Assembly (NCBI GenBank): GCA_020072645.1
Contig: JAIQGK010000012.1
Location: forward strand, 434,001-498,000
DNA from: Terriglobia bacterium
GTDB taxonomy: Bacteria > Acidobacteriota > Terriglobia > Terriglobales > Acidobacteriaceae
Reading direction: 5' to 3'
Length of the DNA stretch: 64,000 nt
Every line of letters starts with the position of its first letter. The first letter of the stretch is position 1. Position numbers and translations under genes: made by a program. Below the pieces are notes generated by a model. That model did no database searches. It was not told where the DNA came from and worked only from the letters and a program-made list of their open reading frames with translations. Positions 1 through 6,653 of this stretch are shown piece by piece.

Positions 1-2520
1 AAAACCTTGGCCGCTGGCGGGATGATTGTTGGATTGAACATACCATTTGACCTGTCTCGTCTCGCTCTTGGCTGGGCAAGAGCCCGTAACGGCGGGTGGT
101 CGCTTATCATGTCAGAGCGCATCTCTCGCAAGACAGGTCAAAGTGAGCCCAATCCAAACCGGCCCCGGATTCGAGTTGACGCACCTTTCATAGCTTTGCT
201 TCGTTCCGAACATCCAGAGGAATGGCCCCCAGGTAGGTTTCTCGATCTGCACACTGTTTCCCTTGCATTATTTGGCGAAGCCATGGGCTTAGAGGCTTTG
301 TGTCAACGGTTAGAAATCCCCGGAAAAATTGCGCACGAACCAAGCGGAAAAATTATGCCTGCCGAAATCGATTATTGTCGGGGAGATGTACGAGCAACCC
401 ATACCGCGCTGAATGAATTGAAAAAAGAATTCGATCTGCATCCGTTGGAACACCTGTGGCCTGACAAAGCTTATTCTCCCGCCTCAATAGCTAAAGCTTA
501 CTTGGACGGAATGGGAATTATTCCACCAAAAGAAAAATTCGCCGTATCGAACAAAGTCCTGGGCATTGCGATGCAAGCATACTATGGCGGTAGAGCGGAA
601 TGCCGGGTGCGGAGGACTCCCGTTCCGGTGATTCATACAGATTTCAAAAGCCAATATCCGACCGTAAATACGCTCCTTGGAAACTGGAGAGTGTTAACCG
701 CTAAGAGCATATCGTTCGACGACGCAACCGAAGATGTGCGGAGATTTGTTAGCGCCGTAAAATTAGATGATCTTTTCAATCCTGATACGTGGAAAAAGTT
801 ATCTTTTTTTGCGCTTGTCCGGCCAGATAAAGACATCCTGCCAATTCGGACGGCGTATAACAACGTAACGCAAAACATCGGCATAAACGAACTTACCTCA
901 AATCAGCCGATCTGGTTTGCGGGTCCTGATGTCGTCAAGTCAGCAATTCTGAGCGGCAAGGTGCCACATATCGAAAGAGCGATTCGGATAAAGCCGATAG
1001 GCAAACAGCCCGGACTAAAGACAATAAGATTGCGGGGAACTCTCGCAATAGACCCGAGACGAAATGATTTCTTTCGCTATGTTGTAGAGGAACGCGAACG
1101 CCAAAAAGGCAACAAAGCGCAGGCTGACTTCTTAAAAGTTCTTGCCAATGCCGGAAGTTACGGTCTATTCGTGGAAATCAATCCAGAGAAATCGGCGAAG
1201 CCAGTCAAAATTAAAGTTTTTTCCGGTGAACAGTCGTTTGAGCAATCATCACAGGTTATTGAAAAACACGGTCGATGGTACTTCCCGCCCCTTGCGGCGC
1301 TAATCACTGCGGGTGGTCGGTTGCTTTTGGGAATGCTTGAAAAATCTGTAATAAACGAGGGAGGAGCACACCTCTTTTGCGACACCGATTCACTGTGCAT
1401 CGTTGGATCAAATCAGGGCAGCTTCGTTCCTTGTTTAGGGGGAAGGCACAGTTTGCCGAATGGTAAAGACGCGGTCAAAGCCCTTTCGCGAAAAGCTATT
1501 GAGCAAATTGCAAATAGGTTCAGGTTGCTCAATCCGTATCATCCTCACGTTGTCCCGCACCTTCTAAAGATCGAGGATATTAATTTTGATTCGTCAGGCC
1601 AGCTTCGCAAACTTATGGGTTACGCGATTTCTGCCAAACGGTACGTTCTTTATCAGCAATCCAAATCTCAGCTCACCATAATCGAACCAAAGGCTCACGG
1701 CTTAGGCTATCTTTATCCGCCAATAGAGAAAAAAGGGAAGGATGATCCGCACTGGACATTCGAGGCTTGGAAATGGATGTTGTGCAAGGAACTTGGTTTG
1801 CGAAGTTCCGCGCCTCGCTGGGTTGATCTGCCTGCAATGATGCGAATTGTTGTAAGCACGCCGAATGTGCTCGGTAGGTTTAATCAGCTGACGCGACCTT
1901 ACAATTTTCTGTTTTGTCCCTTGATCGATGCGGTTGCCGGTTATCCAGCAAATTTGGATAGAGACAATTGCACATTGATAACAGCATTCACAAAAAATCG
2001 AAGGCACTGGATACAGGCGGAATGCATCAACGTTCTTGACGGAGCACGTTATCAGCTTGCAGAAAAGCAGAGCAATAAGCTAGACAAGTTGATTCCTCAA
2101 ACTTTTGAATATGTACTTAGACTCTATCTTTGCCATCCTGAGGCAAAGTCTCTTGCCCCTGATAGCACGGCATCCGTCGCTGATACGCGGGGACTATTGA
2201 AACGCTCATCTATTATCGCAGGCCAGTTGCGCTATGTCGGAAAAGAAACCGATAGGCGGTGGACGGAGGACGAAAACCCAAGCCTGCTGACATTTTCACC
2301 CGTCGAATATCTTCCCTCCGGCAAGGTTGCTGCTGATACGAACTTACAAGCTAAAGTCAGCGACCTGGGTGTTCGCGAACTTATGCGGAGAACGGGATTT
2401 AGCCAACACACGATAGAAGCGATTCGCGACGGGAAACCAGTGCGACGAACTACTTTGACGCGGATGCAAGCGACGGTACTGCTTCCCCGAAATTTGAAGC
2501 GGCAAACTCTAAAAGATTAA
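1..2520 (+). CDS. Family B DNA polymerase, 5' end beyond window
   Basis: Template-directed DNA synthesis with a probable 3'-5' proofreading domain. The frame is open to base 1, so the N-terminus (including an expected ExoI D-x-E motif) lies outside the window. Counting from a TTG at base 7, visible motifs are ExoII NIPFD (11-15), ExoIII Y123-x3-D127, a YxGG motif (192-195), polymerase motif A DFKSQYP (212-218), motif B K377 to YG386, T-x2-GR (434-438), motif C DTDS (459-462) and K-x-Y (543-545). All catalytic motifs look intact. The last ~50 residues resemble a helix-turn-helix and recur downstream at 3928. It is followed by an AAA ATPase on the same strand after a 40-base gap. A cellular replicative role is unlikely, since bacterial replicases are family C. 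Mobile-element or defence origin is inference. Family assignment is firm; subfamily is not. Confidence 0.85.
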   Translation, partial: KTLAAGGMIVGLNIPFDLSRLALGWARARNGGWSLIMSERISRKTGQSEPNPNRPRIRVDAPFIALLRSEHPEEWPPGRFLDLHTVSLALFGEAMGLEALCQRLEIPGKIAHEPSGKIMPAEIDYCRGDVRATHTALNELKKEFDLHPLEHLWPDKAYSPASIAKAYLDGMGIIPPKEKFAVSNKVLGIAMQAYYGGRAECRVRRTPVPVIHTDFKSQYPTVNTLLGNWRVLTAKSISFDDATEDVRRFVSAVKLDDLFNPDTWKKLSFFALVRPDKDILPIRTAYNNVTQNIGINELTSNQPIWFAGPDVVKSAILSGKVPHIERAIRIKPIGKQPGLKTIRLRGTLAIDPRRNDFFRYVVEERERQKGNKAQADFLKVLANAGSYGLFVEINPEKSAKPVKIKVFSGEQSFEQSSQVIEKHGRWYFPPLAALITAGGRLLLGMLEKSVINEGGAHLFCDTDSLCIVGSNQGSFVPCLGGRHSLPNGKDAVKALSRKAIEQIANRFRLLNPYHPHVVPHLLKIEDINFDSSGQLRKLMGYAISAKRYVLYQQSKSQLTIIEPKAHGLGYLYPPIEKKGKDDPHWTFEAWKWMLCKELGLRSSAPRWVDLPAMMRIVVSTPNVLGRFNQLTRPYNFLFCPLIDAVAGYPANLDRDNCTLITAFTKNRRHWIQAECINVLDGARYQLAEKQSNKLDKLIPQTFEYVLRLYLCHPEAKSLAPDSTASVADTRGLLKRSSIIAGQLRYVGKETDRRWTEDENPSLLTFSPVEYLPSGKVAADTNLQAKVSDLGVRELMRRTGFSQHTIEAIRDGKPVRRTTLTRMQATVLLPRNLKRQTLKD
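2368..2476 (+). repeat. Direct repeat copy 1: polymerase C-terminal HTH segment
   Basis: This segment encodes the C-terminal helix-turn-helix-like part of the polymerase (GVRELMRRTGF and following). It aligns without gaps, at a fixed offset of 1560 bases, to 3928-4036. By eye the two are roughly three-quarters identical in DNA and closer in protein, so this is an old duplication or two members of one domain family, not a recent copy. Confidence 0.8.
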
Positions 2521-2560
2521 GAGTGCCCAAACATAGAGATTAGAGGTAAACTCCCCAAAT

Positions 2561-3859
2561 ATGCTTGTCAATCCGTTTACTCCCACGAGAATTGCGTCCA
2601 AGCCAAACGAGTTTTTCGGAAGATTCGATGAGATCACCATATTGGAGAGATCGCTGCAAATGGGGTCAGTAGTTTTGGACGGGCCAATAGGAATTGGAAA
2701 ATCATCCTTGTTGTCGCGGGTTGTATTGGCAATGGAGGGATTTGCGACTGGCAAGAAAGCAAAATCGGTACTGGCTACGGGACACAGGGGTATCCAGACT
2801 GTTGATGATGCTGCGCGCATTCTCCTTCACAAATTTGTTGATATTGATGAGAAGCAAAAATCCGTATCCTTTAAAGTCGCATTGGGCATACCGAAGTTCG
2901 GCTTGGGGGTTGAATATGAACGAAAAACCCAGGAAATATATAAGAATTTTTCCGATGGCCAGCATCTTGCAGCCTTATTGAATATTATTGAGCGTGAAAC
3001 ATTGTTGAAAATTCTCGGCTCAGACCATGTTCTTCTTTTATGCGTTGATGAAGCTGATAAATGTCCCGTTGCCTTGGCCAGATTGGTCAGATCTATTTCA
3101 AATGATATACAACATCAAGGCATTGATTCTGTGCGATTCGTTTTAGCGGGGGTTAGTCCTTATTTCCAAGCGATGGTAGCAGAAGATGAGGGAATTCGCA
3201 GGTTTTTCTATAAGACAATTCGTCTCAAGTCTCTCTCCGATTCAGACAGCCAAGACCTTCTGCACACCAAGTTGACCGTGGTCGCACAACGGGCAGAGAA
3301 AGATGGTATAAGGCTGCGCATCCATCCGAACGTAATTGGGCGTGTCGTATCTCTCTCAGGGGGTCATCCTCATATCTTGCAACTACTAGGCTCTCATTTG
3401 GTCGAGCATGAAAATGAGGACCCTGACGGTATCATTGACGCAAAAGACTTGGTCAATTCACTTAGAAGGGTATGCTACGAGGATCGAAGTCAGGTGTATG
3501 AGTCTACCCTCCACATGCTCGAAATCGAGGGTAGGCTTGACGGTCTTCTGGAACTGTTCGCCCGAGGCTCATCTGGCTTTCCAACTAAAATCGATCAAAC
3601 CGTTGCACTTGAAACTGTTGGTACAGATACGATTCAGTGGTTTGTTGACCACAACATTCTTGCGCGAACCGAGGATGGCTCATACGGCTTGGTAGATGAG
3701 TTCTTGCGGATACGCATGTTGTTGGATTCCTTAGACAGCAATGACGAGATTAAACAAGTCGAATTGGAGATACTCGAACAGTTTGCCATTCAGTCGGCTT
3801 ACCTAGAAAACTCTTACTCCAATGACAGAATACGGATCACTGGAGATACTGAGGATTAG
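2561..3859 (+). CDS. Orc/STAND-like AAA ATPase
   Basis: A 432-residue P-loop ATPase of the AAA_16/Orc1-Cdc6-like kind. The N-terminal NPF...FFGR signature (residues 4-21) leads to Walker A GPIGIGKS (41-48) and Walker B LLLCVDEADK with D163 and E164. A lid-like region follows (SGGHPHILQLLG), and the C-terminal third looks like a winged helix (DHNILARTEDGSYGLVDEFLRIR). No signal peptide or membrane segment is seen. The ATG start is 40 bases after the polymerase stop, so the two are probably cotranscribed; the upstream Shine-Dalgarno is weak. With a family B polymerase upstream it could act as a loader or DNA-binding partner, or as an NTPase sensor in a defence module. Both roles are inference. 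The ATPase family call is secure. Confidence 0.8.
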   Translation: MLVNPFTPTRIASKPNEFFGRFDEITILERSLQMGSVVLDGPIGIGKSSLLSRVVLAMEGFATGKKAKSVLATGHRGIQTVDDAARILLHKFVDIDEKQKSVSFKVALGIPKFGLGVEYERKTQEIYKNFSDGQHLAALLNIIERETLLKILGSDHVLLLCVDEADKCPVALARLVRSISNDIQHQGIDSVRFVLAGVSPYFQAMVAEDEGIRRFFYKTIRLKSLSDSDSQDLLHTKLTVVAQRAEKDGIRLRIHPNVIGRVVSLSGGHPHILQLLGSHLVEHENEDPDGIIDAKDLVNSLRRVCYEDRSQVYESTLHMLEIEGRLDGLLELFARGSSGFPTKIDQTVALETVGTDTIQWFVDHNILARTEDGSYGLVDEFLRIRMLLDSLDSNDEIKQVELEILEQFAIQSAYLENSYSNDRIRITGDTED

Positions 3860-3927
3860 TATGGGGCCGCTGGGGGGCGAGCGGCACTCGCATCTGCCCG
3901 CCCCCTAACACCTGGATTGCAAATCGT

Positions 3928-4036
3928 GGTGTTCGCGAACTCATGCGCAAAACTGGATTCAGACAGCACACTATCGAAGCGCTTCGCGATGGAAAGCCCG
4001 TGCGCCGCACAACACTTATCCGAATGCGGACTGCGG
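3928..4036 (+). repeat. Direct repeat copy 2: HTH segment
   Basis: Partner of 2368-2476, at a constant offset of 1560 bases. It lies just after the AAA ATPase stop codon, so the two copies bracket that gene. Recombination between them would delete the ATPase. Confidence 0.75.
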
Positions 4037-4224
4037 TGGAAACACAAGTCTTCGGGGATGAGTCCCCAAACAGCGTTTCCCGAAAGTTCGCCGAAGAAAG
4101 AGGAATGATCGTCCCAGATAGACTTCAGCTATCATGTAAGTTCATTTTGGATCACTTATGCCTTCAGGAGCCGTCAACGCCCGTTTTCCATGTCGAGAGC
4201 TTGGCGACTACATGGAGGAAGTGA
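3928..4224 (+). pseudogene. Relic of polymerase-type C-terminal HTH, open frame running into FRG gene
   Basis: The frame is open from 3853 to a stop at 4222-4224. It reads GVRELMRKTGFRQHTIEAL..., matching the polymerase C-terminus almost residue for residue over about 35 positions, then a tail with no match to the polymerase. No good start codon or ribosome site precedes it; the first ATG is 3943. It may be the tail of a lost second polymerase copy, or the N-terminal HTH of the FRG protein cut off by a frameshift: its last residues (FHVES) would join smoothly to the FRG N-terminus if one base were restored near 4200. Confidence 0.5.
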
Positions 4225-5012
4225 AGAAAGTCCAGAAGACGTGGAGAAAAGGAAAAGTGGAATCCAAAGGGGACAGTATGCCACTTTGGTTTCGAGGTCA
4301 ACGGTCTGCAAAGTGGGATCTCCGGCCTCGAATCTATCGTCATGAATATGCTGAGGCTTTAGAATCTGAGATTAGGCTTGAGTTTGAGGGCCACGGCTTA
4401 CAACTAGCGACAACAAATCTGAACCGCACGAAGTGGGAATGGTACTTCTTGATGCAACATTACGGTGCGCCGACAAGATTGTTGGATTGGACTGGAAACC
4501 CGCTAGCGGCGCTCTATTTTGCGATTGCAGACGAGTCGATAAAGGACGATGTCAAGAATCAAGACGCTGCGGTCTGGATTTTTGACCCCTGGCGTTGGAA
4601 CAACTTGCATTTTAGTGGACTCAGTGGCCCTAGCTTGCCGGGCTGGAAGGAAACCGAACCGTTTCTTCCTGATCTTGAAGATGCCTGCAATCGAGAACGG
4701 GTTCGGAAGCGCTGGCCAATCGCCATCGAACCTCCGAGCATCGACCGACGACTCGCTAATCAGGCAGCTCGATTCCTCTTGTTCGGCAAGGAGAAAGACC
4801 TTGTCAAGGCTATGGACCGAACAAAGAACGAGCGCGAGAAAACACCTAGACTGGCGTATATCGTGCTCGCACATGAGAAATTGGATAGCATTCGCTGCGA
4901 GCTCGACGACATTGGCGTCAACCATCGCATGCTTTTTCCCGATCTACAGGGATTGGGGGCCCACTTATCGTGGGAGTGGAAAGGGTTCCGCAAAGCAAGG
5001 CATCTCTACTGA
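4158..5012 (+). CDS. FRG-domain protein
   Basis: A 284-residue protein with the FRG fold, named for its F-R-G motif. It shows WFRGQ (about residue 44), then LRPRIYR, then the core LMQHYGAPTRLLDWTGNPLAALYFA, all typical of the family. The FRG domain is known from phage-defence and mobile contexts, but its biochemical activity is poorly established. The ATG at 4158 gives an N-terminus that only partly fits the family; the overlapping frame ending at 4224 supplies the better-looking piece FHVES just before LGDYMEEVKK, so a one-base deletion near 4200 is possible and the true start may lie further up. It follows the ATPase and relic HTH in the same orientation and precedes a GNAT-like gene by 62 bases. 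No membrane segment. Confidence 0.75.
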   Translation: MPSGAVNARFPCRELGDYMEEVKKVQKTWRKGKVESKGDSMPLWFRGQRSAKWDLRPRIYRHEYAEALESEIRLEFEGHGLQLATTNLNRTKWEWYFLMQHYGAPTRLLDWTGNPLAALYFAIADESIKDDVKNQDAAVWIFDPWRWNNLHFSGLSGPSLPGWKETEPFLPDLEDACNRERVRKRWPIAIEPPSIDRRLANQAARFLLFGKEKDLVKAMDRTKNEREKTPRLAYIVLAHEKLDSIRCELDDIGVNHRMLFPDLQGLGAHLSWEWKGFRKARHLY

Positions 5013-5074
5013 TGGTTATTTCTAACGGGAAAAAAGGCACGACTAAGGCCAAAAAAAAAAGGAGTGCTTGATTG

Positions 5075-5572
5075 ATGTTGGGCGTTATCACATTTAAGTA
5101 CGATGTTCGACTCGACCAAACGATGGCATTTGAATCTGTGTATCACGAGAATCTGCGTTACGACTTCGAAGAGAAACAGGAGCTACGGGCTACGCGGGGA
5201 GCACTGTTTGTGTGGATGTTTATAGGTGAAGAACTTGCTGGAGAGTCCTATGGCATTCCTCTCGCAAATCTCGATGAACCAATCGAGGGCTTGACTGAAT
5301 TAACTGATACAGAAAAACGGGCAGGAATTTACTGCTACTCAAATACGATCCTCCCCTCTTTTCAAAAGCAGGGTTTCGGGAAAATTCTCAAAGCTCACTG
5401 GCTAGGGGTAGTCGCAGGTAAGGGGTTTGAGCTTGTTTATGGCCATGCACGTCCGGGAGGAAGTCAGGCACTAAACGTCCAGTTCGGAGCCGCCCTTCTT
5501 GGTGTCTTTCCCAATTGGTATGACACGGGCGAGGATTACAGGATGTACCGCCTCGTACTCGATTCGGTGTAA
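5075..5572 (+). CDS. GNAT-like acetyltransferase
   Basis: A 165-residue protein with a GNAT-type acetyl-CoA binding signature, LPSFQKQGFGKILKAHW (Q-x-x-G-x-G-like loop), preceded by a beta-strand-like stretch and followed by a conserved-looking C-terminal strand (YRMYRLVL). The fold call is moderate because overall similarity to known GNATs is visible only in this core. The ATG at 5075 has a good ribosome site (AAAGGAG at 5058-5064); a TTG three bases earlier is in frame. It is the last gene of the accessory island, 62 bases after the FRG gene and probably cotranscribed with it. The substrate cannot be told. Confidence 0.6.
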   Translation: MLGVITFKYDVRLDQTMAFESVYHENLRYDFEEKQELRATRGALFVWMFIGEELAGESYGIPLANLDEPIEGLTELTDTEKRAGIYCYSNTILPSFQKQGFGKILKAHWLGVVAGKGFELVYGHARPGGSQALNVQFGAALLGVFPNWYDTGEDYRMYRLVLDSV

Positions 5573-5753
5573 ACCAGCATACGGTGAGCGCAATTTTATC
5601 GCGGTTTTCACCCCCCCAATCCCTCGCACCGCCCCCTAAGGCACTGAGGTGTAGCAGTTTTCCCGTTCTAATAGCTATCCCCGTCAAACGACGCACATGT
5701 GAGAATAGCGCGACAGCCAATGCAAACCACCGCTACTGGGGATTTAAAGGACC
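5573..5753. other. Boundary between accessory island and core-like genes
   Basis: No supported gene. The stretch holds a C-rich run (5608-5637) whose CCGCCCCCTAA core also occurs at 3899-3909, before the FRG cassette. The similarity is short and could be chance, but it brackets the FRG and GNAT genes. Confidence 0.3.
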
Positions 5754-6528
5754 TTACTCAGCCGCCCTACACGTCCGCGAGTCCGCGTCGCGCCATTCAC
5801 GTGACCACAATTTTGACGACAGCGCCTTATCGGGATGGGTCGATTCGTACTCGGCAATTATCCGGTCATAGGCGGATGAAGCCTTACTGCGGTCATCGTC
5901 ACCGAAAATCACTCCGGTTCCACGTTCGACCTCAATCTTCGCTCCGAGCCTATGAGCGGCCTTCCGGACCGCTGCATCGGAAGTGCCTTCCGGCAAAAAA
6001 CGAGCACTCGATGCTCATCGAGCAGCGTGCGGCTGGAACTCCGGTCTCATCCAGGACTTGCTCCATGCGTACACGCGGGATCTTTTGCGGAACGCGCAGC
6101 CGAACCATCTCTGCCGGCTTTGTCCGCGAAGCGACGGCGGCTTCCGGAATGAATGCAACCACGAACTTCTGATGGGCAAAGCGGCCAAGCAGCGCCATCA
6201 TGTACCGCATCTCTTCAAGCGACACCGGCACTTTTACCACTACGGAATTCTCTGCGCCGCTCACGCCCAGTGTCCCTTGCTCGTGGACTTCACCGATCAC
6301 CGTTTCCACAGAACCGCGCGCCGCAACCGCGCATACGATACGATCAGCCACCGCGACAAAGTTCGCTTCCTCAAACGACCGCAGAGAGACCTTTGCGTCG
6401 GCATAGCTCATTGAATCTCGCGTGTTAGGCGAGCCCAGGCCGACCGCCATCTGCTGTCCCGCAGCCGATCCGAGCAAAACCAAAATACTCACGAGACAGC
6501 GCGTGAACATTGTTTCGGTCAATGCCAT
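5754..6528 (-). pseudogene. Exported hypothetical protein with apparent frameshift
   Basis: Two minus-strand frames make one protein. The first (6528 down to 5950) starts with a signal peptide (MFTRCLVSILVLLGSAAGQQ, alternative start at 6510) and runs to a stop soon after ARCSMSIECSFF. The second (from about 5996 down to 5754) begins LPEGTSDAAVRKAAHRLGAKI and ends in an alpha-helical tail. A run of six T on the coding strand (5995-6000) sits exactly at the switch; with five T the reading would be SIECSFLPEGTSDAAV without a break. So this is a one-base slip: sequencing error, real mutation, or slippage. The restored protein is about 257 residues and matches no family I recognise. It is divergent from the next gene. 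Confidence 0.55.
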
Positions 6529-6653
6529 GGCAAGATCATACCTACTCTGGGAACAACCGAGTTGCGCAGAATCGCTTCTATGCTGGGCCCAACTCGTAAT
6601 GTGGCGCGCCAGCTATAATTGGCCGTTTCCCATCCTTCGATTGGAGAAGTTGC

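Follow-up and report, generated by a model that had tools for sequence, protein, structure and literature searches.

The window analyzed here comprises 64,000 nucleotides (C12:434001-498000) of the 6.4-Mb genome (G000) of a Terriglobia bacterium from the Acidobacteriaceae, to which 20 kb of left flank was added for the analysis. Its left edge cuts through an 11,572-bp element (C12:428111-439682; window coordinates -5889 to 5682) that is most probably a casposon with a stand-alone Cas1 integrase. From left to right, the element contains orf231, orf115, orf157, cas1, and orf187, all on the minus strand, followed by orf164, polB, and the genes for an AAA ATPase, an FRG-domain protein, and a GNAT-like protein, all on the plus strand, with cas1 and polB thus divergent (Table 1). 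An earlier reading made from the sequence alone (the sequence-only reading) had placed an accessory island of the last four genes at positions 1 to 5572; the four genes do share one strand, and they are the right half of a unit that truly begins 5,889 bases to the left of the window and ends 110 bases further to the right. The element is bounded by terminal inverted repeats (TIRs) and a perfect 14-bp target-site duplication (TSD), the left copy of which lies directly upstream of thrS (assigned by Pfam). The region to the left of base 1, once extracted, was found to hold the Cas1 gene and the left end of the element, which bears out the suggestion of the sequence-only reading that the polymerase belongs to the replication part of an integrated element.

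Table 1. Features of the study element and cargo of related elements (window positions unless a contig or locus is given)
Feature	Position	Strand	Details
Left TSD copy	C12:428097-428110		GTCAAACGACGCAC
Left TIR	C12:428111-428146		36/36 identical to right TIR
Family B DNA polymerase (polB), CDTDS type, probable C-terminal helix-turn-helix	1..2520; full open reading frame from C12:433632	+	962 amino acids
First copy of 100-nt direct repeat, the polB 3' end (helix-turn-helix tail)	2368..2467; L004:6368-6467	+	repeat search
AAA/STAND-like P-loop ATPase (cargo)	2561..3859	+	AAA_16 and AAA_22, both below curated cut-off
Second copy of polB 3' tail, behind the ATPase gene	3928..4027; L004:7928-8027	+	77% identical; repeat search
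FRG-domain protein (cargo)	4158..5012	+	PF08867 E 1.2e-22; PADLOC PDC-S15 E 2.5e-48
Small protein (cargo)	5072..5572	+	GNAT-like at E 0.12 only, below cut-off
Right TIR	5647..5682	-	36/36 identical to left TIR; perfect inverted repeat
Right TSD copy	5683..5696 (C12:439683-439696)	+	GTCAAACGACGCAC, 14/14 identical to left copy
Defence-like cargo	L050		type II restriction-modification pair
Defence-like cargo	L079		PDC-M54A
Defence-like cargo	L117		AbiU- and LmuA-like proteins
Defence-like cargo	L097		Nhi/AbiO-like protein
Defence-like cargo	L125		PD-T4-6-like kinase
Type I-C CRISPR set	L069:369-13784 (G268:C25; JAIQEY010000065.1; Terriglobia bacterium SRVP_12)		Cas5c E 5e-15; Cas8c E 5e-97; Cas7 E 1e-37; Cas3c E 5e-106

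Cas1, a protein of 523 amino acids encoded to the left of the window, matches PF01867 with an E value of 1.7e-41. In an alignment of 16 homologues, E190, H273, D285, and E288 are invariant, and we matched these residues to the catalytic E141, H208, D218, and D221 of E. coli Cas1, as given in PMC4046053 (published papers are cited here from excerpts). Further, four cysteines arranged as CxxC..CxxC (C394, C397, C408, and C411) are conserved in the 16 sequences together with the pattern of the tail and suggest a zinc ribbon (double zinc ribbon, E 0.05), and the C terminus resembles a helix-turn-helix (HTH; HTH_3, E 5e-4), both matches lying below the Pfam cut-off; such a fusion of HTH and zinc-binding domain to Cas1 is a trait of casposon families 2 and 3. 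When the Cas1 profile was compared with PDB sequences, 13 other Cas1 sequences ranked behind the best match, 6opm (E 3.7e-33), an entry that the paper on the M. mazei casposase (PMC6977970) cites. A tree of 36 sequences placed the 20 acidobacterial ones in one clade (98/100), separate from the six of CRISPR type; the only named casposase in the tree is part of the M. mazei sequence, which sits on a long branch and is of unsure placement.

The polymerase, the 5' 369 nt of whose gene lie to the left of the window, is of family B with a full set of motifs, as had been claimed. Across its 16 aligned homologues, D40xE42, N136..F139D140, and Y248..D252 are kept, which we take to be the exonuclease motifs, as are D337..S340xY342, K502..Y510G511, D584TD586, and K669RY671, which we take to be the polymerase motifs; motif C reads CDTDS, with DTD invariant and the surrounding residues variable. 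Family B polymerases made up all 50 PDB matches listed for the predicted fold (predicted local distance difference test score (pLDDT), 76), and a C-terminal HTH is probable (HTH_26, E 0.05, below cut-off; four helices at 903-950 in the predicted model). A single-sequence search of named genomes with the polymerase gave no match. Its match to the phage DNA polymerase family phrog_1907 (E 8.2e-12) would suit an integrated element of another kind, namely the remnant of a phage, plasmid, or pipolin that has a recombinase of its own. We regard this origin as extremely improbable, because TSD, TIRs, and casposase delimit exactly this unit, because Pfam scans of 11 open reading frames (ORFs) of the element revealed no serine or tyrosine recombinase and no classical transposase, and because the CDTDS motif is that of a group, PolB_CDTDS, which includes the A. 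boonei casposon member (Kazlauskas et al., PMC7544198).

The cargo genes at the right end of the study element bear on a second alternative, in which the polymerase and the ATPase would act together on foreign DNA as a defence island with the FRG protein as effector. The FRG domain proposed in the sequence-only reading is clearly matched, and its PADLOC match makes this protein, carried as cargo, a defence gene candidate; defence-like cargo is also found in related elements (see below). In contrast, the two supposed partners do not travel together: a relative of the polymerase occurs in 47/300 genomes of the family and the ATPase family in 4/300, the study genome included, and the ATPase, alone or with the polymerase, is present in 0/40 related loci. 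The polymerase accompanies Cas1 instead, which was found in 18 of the 20 PolB neighbourhoods fetched (orf164 in 15/20 and orf187 in 3/20). Further, the polymerase matches no PADLOC family, and the ATPase matches mad8 alone (E 0.0037). None of the AAA, FRG, and GNAT-like proteins or the products of the three left ORFs has a homologue at E 1e-3 in the 40 related loci, several of which are short contigs; a weak ATPase match in G147:C53 (E 4.8e-4) lies on a PolB-bearing contig, ~16 kb off and outside the complete element. Homologues of the four genes are thus rarely together, whereas the pairing of polymerase and Cas1 holds, and we consider the defence island very improbable. Casposase, inverted ends, and target duplication together indicate that the polymerase belongs to a transposon and not to a defence system. 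As for the remaining labels, the P-loop AAA part of the ATPase assignment stood, and its Orc1/Cdc6 part was neither supported nor excluded: the best PDB sequence match was RFC2 (E 0.32), and the fold model, built from four sequences, had a pLDDT of 39.7, so that an Orc-like role was dropped as a candidate for want of support. The GNAT label did not survive the cut-off.

Cas1 matches occurred in 89 of the same 300 genomes of the family, including weak ones that look like CRISPR Cas1, and casposon-type Cas1 of at least 200 bits in 36, including the study genome. A profile scan of named genomes, restricted to the best 80 of 108 relatives, provided 78 loci (loci, genomes, and contigs are denoted by L, G, and C). 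These are mostly from the Acidobacteriaceae or Terriglobia, e.g. Edaphobacter lichenicola and Granulicella sp. L46, and several are identical to contigs already matched in the 300 genomes; more distant ones come from Chloroflexi, Gemmatimonadetes, and Actinomycetes, and a few with less than 33% identity resemble CRISPR Cas1. The ends of the chloroflexal, actinobacterial, and gemmatimonadal relatives yielded no convincing pair even under relaxed rules. We then used a detector that calls an element where an exact direct repeat of 12-16 bp is directly flanked by inverted ends. This revealed 26 distinct complete elements with TSD and TIRs, of 5.1-17.1 kb, 21 of them with 14-bp repeats and five with 16-bp repeats, which were trimmed to 14 because one base per side belongs to the element ends; a 27th complete element, of 17,215 bp, lies in a longer stretch. 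The detector found 0/214 in block-shuffled loci and none in the window alone, compared with 32/107 in the real, partly overlapping loci. The far TSD copy is followed by GGG in 16/26 elements, a three-base criterion being a weak one.

Comparison of the target sites revealed a common arrangement. Read in one direction, the TSD ends in TTGAC, often CGTTTGAC, in 24/26 complete elements, the exceptions being L050 (TTGAG) and L115 (TTGTC). The promoter-side neighbour is host DNA at 22 of the 26 elements and another element at four, and in 19 of these 22 host sites TAnnnT starts 18 or 19 nt past the end of TTGAC. Five one-ended sites, which were found by a pattern demanding GTCAA or CTCAA so that only their -10 box is informative, all have TAnnnT at this distance, which brings the total to 24/27 sites (the near-identical elements L084 and L135, from two strains, are both among the 27). 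Counted by gene, with valS and rplU taken once each and L126 and L072a kept separate, the box is present at 12/15 promoters, and automatic clustering of the leaders gave 17 clusters, 14 of them with the box. TTGAC(C)-N17/18-TAnnnT has the layout of a sigma70 promoter, and the site, with TTGAC and TAnnnT at fixed spacing, accordingly looks like such a promoter cut at its -35 box. An ORF of at least 80 amino acids starts within 260 nt at 15/22 complete-element sites. The downstream genes with Pfam support are thrS at the study element and a class I tRNA synthetase gene (valS by eye) at six; others encode ribosomal L21 (rplU; L125 and, by eye, L117) and RodZ-type, radical SAM, and protein kinase products. 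A single-gene target of the attTn7 type was rejected, as the downstream genes differ. Where both genes gave the orientation, the cas1 side faces the promoter in nine elements and the polB side in nine. Judged by these motifs, the elements look like promoter-targeting transposons, placed at a fixed distance from predicted sigma70-type promoters of different genes.

It could be argued that the target is merely TTGAC in gene-poor DNA and that a -10 box is present because surviving insertions sit near promoters. Indeed, the border is the best conserved part of the site (TTG in 14/14 representatives), and selection would remove insertions within genes. The box at 18 or 19 nt is nevertheless much rarer around TTGAC in general: outside long ORFs of the same loci, it accompanies 58/696 TTGAC and 19/211 TTTGAC (8-9%, the sites themselves included), and in a count made regardless of ORFs, 34/1292 TTGAC and 17/370 TTTGAC. 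Further, the casposases of A. boonei and M. mazei require a second leader motif (PMC6614799 and PMC6977970). We therefore think a TTGAC-only target improbable.

The recurrence of valS was followed up in 80 genomes, all of which had a match; loci were taken from the best 30 (L189-L218). TTGAC-N19-TAnnnT was found within 260 nt upstream of valS in 26 of these 30 genomes, with or without an adjoining element, which indicates that it is a host motif. Of the 26 motif-bearing regions, 13 have CCC, the triplet found at casposon ends, at a distance of exactly 14 bp upstream of the cut; for three given bases, chance would give an estimated ~2-3%. Two of the 13 were known already (G006 and G069), and of the eight others examined, three are short at contig ends; the remaining five show casposon-type ends in 4/5 and a second TSD copy in two. 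L220, the fifth, was rejected as a valS casposon site, as it looks like a chance CCC match. The valS promoter thus looks like a family-wide insertion hotspot.

In addition to the restricted information of the one-ended sites, several observations weigh against a casposon inserted at a sigma70-type promoter. First, 3/27 sites lack TAnnnT, namely L079 (GAGACT), L134 (AATACT), and L115 (with TTGTC for TTGAC), and the sites are partly non-independent, six being valS and five being one promoter in Edaphobacter-type genomes. Second, no ORF start of the above kind is present at 7/22 sites, including the five Edaphobacter-type sites and L050, and the valS gene of the study genome itself is among the 4/30 without the promoter motif. 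Third, HNH is reported for all family 2 and 3 casposons in the excerpts of PMC4046053, and no match to the HNH endonuclease profile PF01844 was found in C12:428111-439682; in 10 genomes searched, such matches lie within 2 of 13 complete elements (G069:C11 and, weak and partial, G256:C2). Fourth, the 917 bp (window 5697-6613) that separate the right TSD from the next host promoter are absent from all eight other genomes of the genus searched and are unexplained, so that comparison with the empty site brackets the right border, whose place is given by TSD and TIR. In favour of the casposon, the insertion site is bracketed by G134, a genome of the same genus that has no element there: thrS and the gene flanking the island on the right are divergently arranged, and the interval between their matches is ~120 bp. 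Overall, we conclude, with a probability of about 0.9, that the study element is a casposon with a stand-alone Cas1 integrase inserted at a sigma70-type promoter.

A second genome, G170, was rejected as a clean empty site since end-like sequence follows its single TSD-like copy. What follows the one copy of the thrS target at L060:5790-5850 of this genome looks like a degraded casposon end, which would fit the loss of an element along with adjacent genes.

Some of the related elements stand in arrays. Both G006:C27 and G028:C12 contain a pair of elements that have three identical copies of a 14-bp sequence in common; cas1 and polB are present in the element proximal to the valS promoter, whereas its distal partner (5,338 and 5,885 bp, respectively) has no full copy of either. 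Some other junctions consist of two outward-facing ends around a single 14-bp copy. Cargo-only elements, with perfect 14-bp duplications and without full cas1 and polB, are L039:14104-19441, L047:782-6666, and L075:5312-10530, the first two of which adjoin autonomous elements; presumably, they were moved in trans. They account for some of the tail-only Cas1 and PolB matches, and the repeated polB tail was consequently rejected as a marker of cargo cassettes, since tail-only matches lie inside complete but cargo-only elements. The second copy of the polB tail in the study element is possibly a scar of recombination between two casposon ends. At L219:533-8839 and L221:6193-12174, identical 14-bp copies enclose segments with two differing end types, as if neighbouring casposons had recombined. 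At L072:1605 and 15099, two matching inverted ends are bordered on the outside by differing 14-bp sequences, and each side faces a predicted promoter of its own, which points to recombination of two insertions.

The cargo was surveyed in 152 non-core ORFs of at least 110 amino acids from 24 elements (the study element and L135 excluded), and the 132 of at least 150 amino acids were compared with Pfam and PADLOC profiles, the 25 commonest of 75 and of 288 families, respectively, being considered. Two cargo proteins in other elements match phage integrase among the Pfam matches listed. When 30 cargo proteins, not chosen at random, were scanned singly, 12 matched PADLOC families (5/10, 6/10, and 1/10). 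By these profile matches, the cargo varies between elements and is often defence-like. L069, a complete casposon with a perfect 14-bp duplication, carries the type I-C CRISPR set of Table 1 together with an array of six or more repeats (32 nt as judged by eye); inspection by eye of its ORFs of at least 90 amino acids revealed neither a second Cas1 nor a Cas2. In the study element, a repeat search of C12:430001-446000, in which no array-specific tool was used, listed no CRISPR array.

A mechanism can be proposed for this lineage. The polymerase would copy the element, and the casposase would attach the C-rich 3' ends of the element to the two strands of the target at positions 14 bp apart, as published casposase biochemistry leads one to expect. 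The first cut would fall at the border of leader and target, which here is where the TTGAC -35 box ends on its 3' side; the second motif, the one that casposases need in the leader, would coincide with the -10 box 18 or 19 nt onward. Because the -35 box lies inside the 14-bp duplication, the core promoter beside the -10 box would be whole after insertion and reusable; the host gene would stay expressed from its predicted promoter, and reuse of the site would place elements in tandem with one 14-bp repeat between neighbours. The target requirements of published casposases are bases where leader and TSD meet plus another motif within the leader (PMC6614799 and PMC6977970); for the A. boonei enzyme, most of the distal TSD can be dispensed with, and a C-rich TIR 3' end, TCCCC, is important (PMC6614799), and the authors of the M. 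mazei study suggest that the casposase HTH reads the leader (PMC6977970).

Targeting through promoter-bound sigma70 or RNA polymerase, rather than through DNA sequence read by the casposase, has to be weighed here. A precedent for guidance by transcription proteins is Ty3, which uses Pol III factors for targeting. The play of one nucleotide in spacing and the free middle of the -10 box would resemble the tolerance of RNA polymerase more than a rigid protein contact, and promoter features are all that the different target genes have in common. In contrast, purified archaeal casposases find their leader motif in vitro (PMC6614799 and PMC6977970), and the C-terminal HTH and zinc ribbon of Cas1 could be direct readers. 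We consider such guidance somewhat unlikely. It seems likely that this whole bacterial casposon lineage uses the sigma70 promoter as attachment site, the casposase reading the -35 box as border and the -10 box as leader motif (or following RNA polymerase), and that the promoter is rebuilt each time, which would build up CRISPR-like transposon arrays anchored at promoters and gathering defence cargo ahead of genes such as valS and thrS, in one case CRISPR effectors without a Cas1 of their own.

The CRISPR adaptation enzyme is held to descend from casposases. A promoter-like leader with elements added beside it would be a natural model for the origin of the leader-plus-repeat array, and it allows the parts played by the leader motif and the casposase HTH to be tested. 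Some casposons of this lineage carry defence genes. Casposons, tandem casposons separated only by TSDs, and HTH fusions are already known (PMC4046053 and PMC9939771), and promoter targeting is known from unrelated DDE elements (PMC3942029). In the open-access literature, with subscription papers and preprints outside the search, we found no report of casposon promoter targeting or of this lineage; in that on casposons and Acidobacteria, a casposon is named only within a reference, and a promoter is not mentioned in PMC6614799 or PMC10359463. Casposons come up once in the excerpted text of a 2024 review of CRISPR in mobile elements, as source of the adaptation module.

Compared with the casposons of Krupovic et al. 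(2014; PMC4046053), the study element resembles families 2 and 3, in which Cas1 carries a C-terminal HTH (family 2) or a zinc-binding domain and an HTH (AceAut-C1, family 3), and the polymerase of family 2 ends in an HTH, to which the probable HTH found here would correspond. TIRs, TSDs (median of 15 nt there), variable cargo, and adjacent copies in some genomes are shared as well. The targets differ: tRNA 3' ends, aEF-2 genes, and ten intergenic loci are given there, whereas the acidobacterial sites look like sigma70 promoters. Further, four bacterial casposons are listed in that paper, compared with one large clade of soil Acidobacteriota with cargo-only derivatives here, and the share of family genomes with casposon-type Cas1 suggests that casposons are common in some bacteria. 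With the casposases of A. boonei and M. mazei, the lineage has in common a two-part target and a 14-bp TSD (PMC6614799 and PMC6977970); for those two, the leader is part of a tRNA gene (in A. boonei, TCAAATC at -14 to -9), whereas here the -10 box lies at about -19 to -25 and the border is a -35 box. The promoter-associated TnGBS, ISLre2, and ISKra4-group Mutator-like elements (Guerillot et al., 2014; PMC3942029) have unrelated DDE transposases, and the insertion point of TnGBS is 15-17 bp upstream of the -35 region; the elements here instead cut at the 3' border of the -35 box, which becomes duplicated. Finally, CRISPR arrays likewise involve a Cas1 homologue and a repeat regenerated with each insertion beside a fixed leader (PMC9939771), and the autonomous element is leader-proximal in both two-element arrays examined; here, however, the units are transposons of 5-17 kb, the repeats are 14 bp, and the leader is a predicted host promoter.

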